Made by a program: the position numbers and the translations under genes
In this document: piece after piece, positions 2,106-37,482 of the stretch
Layout: each line of letters opens with the position of its first letter
How positions within the stretch are numbered: position 1 is the first letter of the stretch
Source: Geobacteraceae bacterium
Lineage (GTDB): Bacteria > Desulfobacterota > Desulfuromonadia > Geobacterales > Geobacteraceae
Direction of reading: 5' to 3'
Assembly: GCA_028683555.1 (NCBI GenBank)
Contig: JAQUHN010000014.1
Coordinates: forward strand, 1-37,482
DNA length: 37,482 bases
The notes under the pieces: generated by a model
Told to the model about the DNA's origin: nothing
Seen by the model: only the letters and a program-made list of their open reading frames with translations
Databases searched by the model: none

Positions 2106-3908
2106 ATGCAGGAAAAGATTCGTAACATAGCTATTATCGCCCATGTCGACCATGGCAAGACAACGCTTGTGGACGCCCTGCTGAAGCAGTCGGGTGTTTT
2201 CCGGAATAACGAAGCCATCACCGAACGGGTCATGGACTCCAATGACCTTGAAAAGGAACGAGGCATCACCATCCTGGCAAAAAATCTCTCCATCAGACAT
2301 GGTGGACACAAAATCAACATCGTCGACACGCCGGGACATGCGGATTTCGGTGGTGAAGTGGAGCGAGTGCTGAAGATGGTGGACTCCGTTCTCCTTCTTG
2401 TGGATGCCCTCGACGGCCCCATGCCCCAGACGCGGTTCGTACTGAAAAAATCCCTTGATCTCGGCCTGCGGCCGATCGTTGTCATCAACAAAATCGACCG
2501 GCCGGGCGCCCGGCCGACGGAAGTCGTCGACATGGTTTTCGACCTCTTCTGCGAGCTCCAGGCAAATGATCAGCAACTCGATTTCGCGATCGTTTACACG
2601 AGTGCCAAAATGGGCTACGCAAAGCTGGATCTCGACGACGATTCCGAATCGATGGAACCGCTCTTCGAAAAGATAATCAGCAACGTGGCGCCTCCGGAAG
2701 GAGACCTGTCCGCGCCATTCCAGATGCTCGTGACAAACATCGATTATAATGAGTATATCGGCCGAATTGCCACCGGCAAGATCTTTAACGGAAAAGTCAC
2801 CGCTGGTGAGACGTTAGCCCTTGTGAAACGCACCGGTGAAATTAAAAAGGGCCGGATTTCAAAACTTCTCGGCTACGAGGGACTTCAGCAGGTGGAAATC
2901 TCCGAAGCAGTGACCGGAGACATCGTAACCATTGCCGGTTTCGAAGAAGTGGGCATCGGCGAGACGTTGGCAAGCGCCGAAACCCCTATCCCCCTTCCCT
3001 ATGTCGCCATTGACGAACCGACAATCGCCATGAATTTCATTGTCAGCAATTCCCCATTCGCGGGTCGCGAAGGGAAATTGGTAACCTCCCGCAACATCAG
3101 GGAACGTCTGGAAAGGGAACTGCGTACCAATGTATCGCTCCGTGTCGAAGACACCGGCAATCCTGACACCTTCCTGGTTTCGGGACGAGGAGAACTGCAC
3201 CTGTCCATCCTCATTGAGAACATGCGCCGCGAAGGATTCGAAATGTCGGTGTCCAAGCCAGAAGTGATTCTGCGCGACAGGGACGGACAGAAACAGGAGC
3301 CGATCGAATATCTGGTGGTTGACGTTCCCGCCGAGCACCAGGGAACCATTATCGAAAAGATGGGACCACGCAAGGGCGAAATGGTCGCCATGCACCAACT
3401 CGGTGACGTGATTCGCCTCGAGTTCCTGGTTCCGGCTCGGGGGCTGATCGGTCTTCGTGGCGAAATCCTTACCGAAACCCGGGGAACGGGCATCATGACC
3501 CATACCTTCCACGGTTATGCACCTTACAAAGGGGATATTCCGGGACGCAAAAACGGGGTTTTGATTGCCATGGAACACGGGGAAACCACCGCCTACTCGC
3601 TGGATGCCCTGCAGCCGCGCGGTGTGCTCTTCATCGGCCCGGGTACGGAAGTCTACGGCGGAATGGTTATCGGCCAGCACGCCAAGGACAATGACCTGGA
3701 CGTAAACCCCTGTAAAGGCAAGAAACTGACCAATGTCAGAGCGTCAGGTTCCGATGACGCCATCAAACTGACCCCACCGCGGCTGCTGACATTGGAACAG
3801 GCGCTCGAATTCATCGATGACGACGAACTGGTGGAGATCACGCCAGTCTCCATCAGGCTAAGGAAAAAAGAACTGGATCCGACCAAAAGAAAGCGCCATT
3901 CGCGCTAA
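2106..3908 (+). CDS. typA: Ribosome-associated GTPase TypA/BipA
   Basis: TypA/BipA is a translational GTPase that binds the ribosome and helps 50S assembly and growth under stress or cold. The 600-residue length is normal for the family. The GTPase motifs are all present: HVDHGKT (residues 13-19), ERGITI (51-56), DTPGH (74-78), NKID (128-131) and TSAK (about 166-169). An EF-Tu domain 2, an EF-G-like domain ([22 protein letters not shown]) and the BipA-specific C-terminal part ([23 protein letters not shown]) follow in order. The ATG at 2106 has AGGAG eight bases upstream. It appears to be transcribed from its own promoter through an unusual leader, and a long hairpin follows the stop codon. 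Confidence 0.97.
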
Positions 3909-36283: not shown

Positions 36284-36331
36284 GTCCAATCTTAATTGGC
36301 TGCAAGAGAATATTTGTTCTGAGAGGTCTTG

Positions 36332-36751
36332 ATGGTAGAGAGAATTGATGAAATGAAAGCTCTTCTCCTGAAACTGAAGGAGGAGACCCTTAAAGAAATA
36401 AACAAGACGATGAAGTCTACGTCCGAAATTCCCAGTGGGGAACCGAGTGGCGATATCTATGACCAGGCTTCCAGCGAAAGGGACCGGGAACTGGGTCTGT
36501 TGCTGAATGATCGTGAACGGGAAAAGCTGCGCAACATCGACGAAGCGCTGCTACGTATCCAGGAAGGCGATTACGGGATATGTGAGGAGTGCGGCTGCGA
36601 TATCCCGATCGGCAGACTCAAAGTCATGCCCTTTGCCCACTACTGCGTAAAGTGCAAGGAAGATATTGAAAAGATCCAGGCGCAAACCAAGCGCTTTGAA
36701 GAGGAAAAAAGCTACAGCGAAATCCCCATAAATGATGACGAGGACATGTAG
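36332..36751 (+). CDS. dksA: DksA/TraR-family RNA polymerase regulator
   Basis: DksA proteins enter the RNA polymerase secondary channel and, with ppGpp, retune transcription during starvation. The 139-residue product has the expected long coiled coil, with acidic tip residues in GDIYDQASSERDRE (Asp41, Asp44). A four-cysteine zinc finger follows (C84, C87, C105, C108: CEECGCDIPIGRLKVMPFAHYCVKC spans 84-108). An acidic tail ends it. AGAGG lies five bases before the ATG at 36332; a TTG three bases earlier is possible. It has its own promoter and a strong terminator. Several DksA paralogues occur in related genomes, so which one this is remains open. Confidence 0.88.
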   Translation: MVERIDEMKALLLKLKEETLKEINKTMKSTSEIPSGEPSGDIYDQASSERDRELGLLLNDREREKLRNIDEALLRIQEGDYGICEECGCDIPIGRLKVMPFAHYCVKCKEDIEKIQAQTKRFEEEKSYSEIPINDDEDM

Positions 36752-36772
36752 CCGGATTATTCGAAAAAAAAA

Positions 36773-36805
36773 GGGCGCTGCCAAAAGGCAGCGCCCTTTT
36801 TTTTT
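36773..36805. terminator. Strong terminator after the DksA-family gene
   Basis: GGGCGCTGCC (36773-36782) and GGCAGCGCCC (36787-36796) form a perfect 10-bp stem with an AAAA loop, followed by nine T (36797-36805). Nine A precede the stem (36764-36772), so it could also work on the minus strand for kup. Confidence 0.92.
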
Positions 36806-37012
36806 CGGACCTATCCCCCAAAAGAAGGTGGATATGACGTTTGACAAGACCTGCCAGGTTTTCGAAAACCTGGCAGGTCTACCATACAGTTAAAGTATCA
36901 GAAGTTGTGTCAACAACGTACATATCTCGGCAATGTCAGCTACTTATGCTCAAGTCGATTTTGGCATTGGCTGTAGTGTTATCCTGCTACCTTCTTTTGG
37001 GGGCTAGGTCCG
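36806..37012. mobile_element. MITE-like non-coding element with 24-bp terminal inverted repeats
   Basis: The ends at 36806-36829 and 36989-37012 are reverse complements at 23 of 24 positions. The outer ends read CGGACCTA..., and the inner part is CCCCCAAAAGAAGGT. Between them lie about 160 bases of A/T-richer sequence with no reading frame, including a perfect 34-bp palindrome. T-runs of nine and seven bases flank the two ends, which could be a T-rich target duplication. No transposase is present, so any movement would depend on an enzyme encoded elsewhere. I cannot name the parent insertion-sequence family. Confidence 0.65.
36847..36880. repeat. Perfect 34-bp palindrome inside the MITE-like element
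   Basis: The half AGACCTGCCAGGTTTTC (36847-36863) is followed without a spacer by its exact reverse complement (36864-36880). Similar CCTGnCAGG-type palindromes are, as I recall, scattered through several unrelated bacterial genomes; I could not check this here. Confidence 0.85.
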
Positions 37013-37017
37013 TTTTT

Positions 37018-37482
37018 TTACATCTCCACCCGGGTCACAACCCCATGCAGACGGCTGGCGGGAAGCTTGTTGAACTGCACGAAGTTCGGCGTCAGCTTCT
37101 TGATAACGCTGAAGACCTTCCAGACCGGGTTCCTGGTATTAATATCTTCTATGCCGTAGAAGATTACCTTTTCCTTGATGCCGTTCATCTTCAAGAGGCT
37201 TTCGATATCCAGCACGACCATGTAGCCGGCGCGGACCTCGAAGGCTTCCAGGCCGGGAGCCAGATCTTCCTTGAGAACGGTTTTCAGGCCGAACGGGTTA
37301 TCGGTTCTGACAATGGAAATCAGAATGTTCCGTTCATAGACAATATTGCTGCGGATAATGCAGTGAATGACATAGGGCGGAATGATATTCCATTCACGGG
37401 CAAAGAACAGCGCTGTACCGGAAAGCACTCTTCCCGATGCATAGATCTGCTCATAGCTCACCTTGAAGGTCTCGATATCCAG
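37018..37482 (-). CDS. kup: Kup-type potassium transporter, C-terminal part
   Basis: This is the 3' end of a gene that runs off the window at 37482; the visible frame encodes about 154 residues. It matches the hydrophilic C-terminal cytoplasmic region of KUP/HAK/KT potassium uptake proteins: GTALFFAREWNIIPPYVIHCIIRSNIVYERNILISIVRTDNP spans the first recognisable block, then KVIFYGIED and the closing LPASRLHGVVTRVEM. A GTG at 37461 is in frame but is almost certainly an internal valine codon, because the frame stays open beyond it (LDIETFK). The TAA stop at 37018-37020 lies only five bases from the MITE-like element. Confidence 0.82.
   Translation of the reverse strand: MDIETFKVSYEQIYASGRVLSGTALFFAREWNIIPPYVIHCIIRSNIVYERNILISIVRTDNPFGLKTVLKEDLAPGLEAFEVRAGYMVVLDIESLLKMNGIKEKVIFYGIEDINTRNPVWKVFSVIKKLTPNFVQFNKLPASRLHGVVTRVEM

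Follow-up and report, generated by a model that had tools for sequence, protein, structure and literature searches.

Features of the dksA–kup interval

The window, a 37,482-nucleotide stretch of contig JAQUHN010000014.1 from a Geobacteraceae bacterium (assembly GCA_028683555.1), carries a dksA-like host gene (36329–36751, + strand; Pfam PF01258/PF21157) and, convergent with it, the 3′ part of the K+ transporter gene kup (37018–37482, − strand; Pfam PF22776). Between the two lies a 207-bp block (36806–37012) that is very probably a miniature inverted-repeat transposable element (MITE) of the IS1595 family with a repetitive extragenic palindrome (REP) nested in it. The element sits directly behind the T-tract of a two-way dksA/kup terminator hairpin with A-tract and T-tract (36762–36807), which is still intact and also occurs in the related genomes G003 and G007, and kup ends 5 bp to the right of the element.

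The block is bounded by 24-nt inverted arms, the left one being CGGACCTATCCCCCAAAAGAAGGT (36806–36829, + strand) and the right one (36989–37012, − strand) departing from it by a single mismatch (23/24 complementary). This inverted-repeat pair is the only one of such quality in the window, and none of equal quality arose in 40 first-order Markov random windows, which bears out the first-pass annotation on the terminal repeats. That annotation had also described the block as richer in A/T than its neighbours, which it modestly is (46.4% G+C, or 40.8% once the ends and the REP are excluded, compared with 47.8 and 50.0% in the immediate flanks and 53.8% in the whole window), and as lacking a coding frame; a TTG frame (36841–37482) crosses the element, antisense into kup, and no coding frame was credited within it. 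Overlooked at that stage were a 34-bp palindrome, a second, inner inverted repeat and the T9 and T7 runs flanking the element. The inner inverted repeat is imperfect, with arms GATATGACGTTTGACA (36831–36846, + strand) and TGTCAACAACGTACATATC (36908–36926, − strand). The palindrome, AGACCTGCCAGGTTTTCGAAAACCTGGCAGGTCT (36847–36880), is perfect and is taken to be the REP, with a GTAG foot on the − strand (CTAC at 36879–36882).

Empty sites and a second copy

The dksA–kup site is empty in relatives. In the sister species G003 the gap has CCC-T8-ACATCTCC, against CCC-T9-[207 bp]-T7-ACATCTCC in the window; over a longer stretch, GGCAGCGCCC-TTTTTTTT-ACATCTCCACCCG in G003 corresponds to GGCAGCGCCC-T9-element-T7-ACATCTCCACCCG in the window. 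The hairpin likewise leads straight to the kup stop in G007, and the element is also missing from the dksA–kup gaps of G001 and G004. The empty sites in G003 and G007 therefore identify the block as an insertion whose edges fall exactly at the terminal repeats. The T9 run (36797–36805) is the T-tract of the dksA terminator and its last eight T form the left target-site duplication (TSD); the right TSD, TTTTTTTA (37013–37020), matches it at seven of eight positions and takes in the stop codon of kup (37018–37020, reverse complement). Sixteen T in place of eight fit an 8-bp duplication, but a T-run cannot prove one.

Own-genome BLAST revealed a second full copy across two contigs, C252 matching query positions 1–67 (96%) and C89 positions 65–207 (92%). 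Both matches break at the same point of the REP, near contig ends, where the sequence passes into the ends of a single insertion sequence (IS). The outer flanks, ...GTTGAAAAAATT and AAAAAATTTATG..., include an exact 8-bp duplication, AAAAAATT, on either side; the simplest reading is that C252 and C89 are one complete copy, split by the IS and not spanned by the assembler. The element thus shows the features by which MITEs are recognised: it is short and non-coding, has terminal inverted repeats, a TSD with a matching empty site, and more than one copy.

The element RNA folds as a single long hairpin (−98.7 kcal/mol, z −11), as might a structured non-coding RNA or an attenuator acting on dksA or kup mRNA. 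However, long nested inverted repeats fold in this way by construction, as expected of a MITE, and an Rfam search over the whole window gave no match. The element is also missing at dksA–kup in the sister species, none of those searched having a full-length match, and is present elsewhere at C252/C89. On the strength of the empty sister sites and the lack of an Rfam match we excluded a conserved single-copy RNA, the outcome that the first-pass annotation had named as contrary to its MITE interpretation; that the element originated as an RNA of any of these kinds is extremely improbable.

Assignment to the IS1595 family

Full insertion sequences sharing the ends of the element were found in two genera. 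L095 (G014:C103) is an intact IS1595-family element of 1084 bp with ends CGGAACTATCTACCAAAAGAAGGT / CGGAACTATGTCACATAAAAAGGT and TSD TTCACAGA; it encodes a transposase of 325 aa (PF12762, 2.5e-38; NF033547, 2.8e-42), and its terminal repeat is identical to the left end of the window element at 21/24 positions. L314 (G094; 1231 bp) is bounded by CGGACCTATAACCCAAACAA(AGGT/AGGC), has TSD TTCCCACT and matches the window end at 20/24 positions; its transposase pieces are 54–63% identical to the L095 transposase. Similar ends were found again in other genera of the same bacterial family, and G015 holds a 155-bp MITE with the same ends (TSD AAAAAGAA). More distant IS1595 elements of the bacterial family have quite different ends (CCTGATTAGCGCC), and the shared ends therefore track a transposase subgroup.

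The length of an 8-bp duplication does not by itself tell IS1595 from ISL3, IS256, IS66 or ISAs1, and to that extent the element might be a MITE of another such family with a coincidental match to IS1595. That the ends recur at 21 and 20 of 24 positions in two intact IS1595-family elements, and that a decayed IS1595 transposase adjoins such an end in G007:C66, makes this very improbable. We assign the element to the IS1595 type because full IS1595 elements combine near-identical ends with 8-bp duplications, the duplication length typical of this family (PMC8101967). The first-pass interpretation as a MITE is thus supported by the ends, the second copy with its 8-bp duplication, the empty site and the related full IS elements; the qualification "probably unclassified" has to be given up, since ends and target duplication place the element in IS1595.

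Two further loci carry such ends. The G007:C66 transposase (L149, ~1325–1980) contains in-frame stops and lies beside the end CGGAACTACCCTCCAAAAGAAGGT; it is what remains of a full element from within the genus. G013:C15 (L104, L107) contains tandem units of ~364 bp, whose right ends were not found, each starting with a CGG-CTATCCCCCAAAAGAAG end behind a terminator-like stretch.

A probable REP nested in the element

The REP accounts for most of the element's 81 own-genome matches (each site counted on both strands), and 39 distinct own-genome REP sites were read. REPs of RAYTs (REP-associated tyrosine transposases) are recognised as palindromes of 20–40 bp that have many extragenic copies and a GT[AG]G foot. 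The GTAG foot is present on the window REP and on most MITE-linked copies; most other copies have NNAG. Every one of the seven other genomes of the genus has the REP, which turns up beyond the genus only here and there; among the matches listed, its exact core is found in Bacteroidota, Chloroflexota, Gammaproteobacteria, Calditrichota and Geobacteraceae. One nearly unchanged 34-bp core is seen in at least four phyla (loci L154–L233). A literature search with the letters of the palindrome returned no relevant paper.

A candidate partner of the REP lies on contig C198, a gene of 199 aa resembling REP-associated tyrosine transposases (RAYTs), with a Y1_Tnp match (PF01797) of 19.2 bits, just below the Pfam cut-off of 23. 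It has one REP on each side (3154–3182 and 3850–3878 of L148) and one internal REP (3557–3586), which is in frame and places QTCQVSENLAGL between NHFHLL, the HUH motif, and FSNFFNSY. The RAYT is likely cognate to the REP. Relatives of this RAYT were found in ~18 of the 32 REP-core genomes searched (~40–81% identity, E below 1e-30); the relatives of the window genome that were searched, G004 excepted, have distant RAYTs only (~25–38% identical). In-frame REPs lie within RAYT genes at about nine other loci, and the C198 layout is repeated in Bacteroidota and Beggiatoa-like genomes (L283, L285, L287, L288, L296–L299, L304). These distributions suggest that the REP core spread along with its RAYT clade.

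Could the element be a product of this system, akin to a REP doublet forming a hairpin (REPIN) or a bacterial interspersed mosaic element (BIME), in which it is the REP that moves, the 24-bp ends being passengers that are complementary by chance? The 39 REP sites, the many copies that share the REP alone or one side of it, and the REPtron on C198 are all in keeping with such an origin. However, the IS200/IS605-type mechanism of RAYTs should yield products that terminate at REPs and lack a target duplication. The empty-site boundary falls exactly at the 24-bp ends instead, the second copy has an 8-bp duplication, and IS1595 elements have the same ends. The element holds a single REP, not the two inverted REPs with a spacer that make up a REPIN. 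In addition, a left end at C42 has the same subterminal GGTGGATATGA and no adjacent REP. Taken together, an origin as a REP/RAYT product is highly improbable. The C42 left end suggests that the REP entered the MITE later; both full copies carry it.

Partial copies and points against the assignment

Several observations weigh against an IS1595-family MITE. The duplication at the window site is a T-run matched at seven of eight positions and is weak by itself. Full copies number two only, and the second is joined from the ends of two contigs. Several other copies are one-sided: C96, C183, C215, C40 and C29 comprise the left side plus the REP alone, and C118 and G003:C75 the REP plus the right side alone. 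No right terminal repeat scored above shuffles beside the own left-side copies at C96, C183, C215, C40 and C42. An IS1595 transposase was not detected in the own genome (93% complete), which leaves current mobility unsupported, and the MITE shares nothing with full IS1595 elements beyond the ends, so that direct descent by internal deletion is not demonstrated.

The right-end scores beside G007:C71 (23; shuffle 95% = 19, maximum 25) and G003:C392 (20; shuffle 95% = 19, maximum 27) are at most suggestive, and searches of relatives with the right half of the element (E ≤ 1) returned only own copies and short end matches. C183 has flanks in common with its G007 counterpart, as has C215 with G003:C392, and these two partial copies are therefore old. 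Decay is the plain reading of the one-sided copies, and REP-mediated exchange is a possible contributor. IS1595 transposases in G002, G003 and G007, which are of the same genus, are partial or interrupted only. As the own genome has none, the element is probably stranded.

Proposed mechanism and effect on the host

Lacking a transposase gene, the MITE would have depended for its movement on a DDE transposase of the IS1595 type, supplied in trans and recognising the 24-bp ends. This presumed enzyme, whose gene was not detected in the assembly, would insert the element into A/T-rich sequence by way of an 8-bp staggered cut; here it landed where a T-tract separates the dksA terminator from the kup stop codon. 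A REP of a RAYT system resembling TnpA_REP subclass 2.4 probably entered the MITE before the copies split and was then copied along with it. It is conceivable, although we regard it as doubtful, that the composite can be spread by two unrelated systems, in which the 24-bp ends would serve the DDE transposase and the inner REP the HUH RAYT; the RAYT or REP-to-REP recombination would then have made the copies that have the left end and the REP without the right half.

The effect on the host should be small, as the terminator hairpin is intact and solely the kup transcript would gain a structured tail. The insertion is probably near neutral.

Nearest known systems

The element kind is already known, and the nested REP is its sole unusual feature. 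As far as descriptions can be compared, the nearest known element is the ISHwa6-associated MITE of Haloquadratum walsbyi, also of IS1595 (165 bp, inverted repeats of 25 bp, direct repeats of 8 bp, seven copies; PMC3852290). The two are alike in being non-coding, in family, size and repeat length, and in the 8-bp duplication; in contrast, the H. walsbyi element is archaeal and has seven copies, and the part of the source that describes it mentions no REP. L095 and L314 resemble the element in their ends and 8-bp duplications but are autonomous, being far longer and encoding a transposase. For the MITE itself, hitherto uncharacterised, the analysis supplies a family assignment, a preferred kind of target and an empty site.

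In-frame REP insertions are a mark of TnpA_REP subclass 2.4 (Quentin et al, 2018; PMC6006769), and the C198 layout is therefore not new. By this layout the C198 RAYT would belong to subclass 2.4 or near it, and its REP resembles those of subclass 2.4 in being scattered over phyla. Unlike them, one REP here lies inside a DDE-type MITE and was copied along with the MITE. As a lead the REP has more to offer: its nearly unchanged sequence and its RAYT clade recur across several phyla, making RAYT–REP co-transfer testable.

An IS inserted in the REP

The REP itself also serves as a landing site. An IS with subterminal repeats ATGGCTGTCAGTA lies in the REP copies at C252/C89, C84, C107 and C29; from these repeats, which are as in the IS1111 group, we take it to be IS1111-like. 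It occupies the same REP point each time and breaks contigs there (L004, 1568–1681; L002, 1–116; L043, 1–100; L044, 1490–1603; L145, 1–111). REP-targeting members of the IS110 family are known, among them ISPpu9 of Pseudomonas putida (PMC8450116). Like the IS found here, ISPpu9 goes into REP copies at a single point; the element here differs in its subterminal repeats ATGGCTGTCAGTA, resembling the IS1111 group. Three transposition systems are stacked at one kind of site, an IS1595-type MITE, the REP within it and the IS1111-like IS within the REP. The right end of an IS of this type also opens contig C13.
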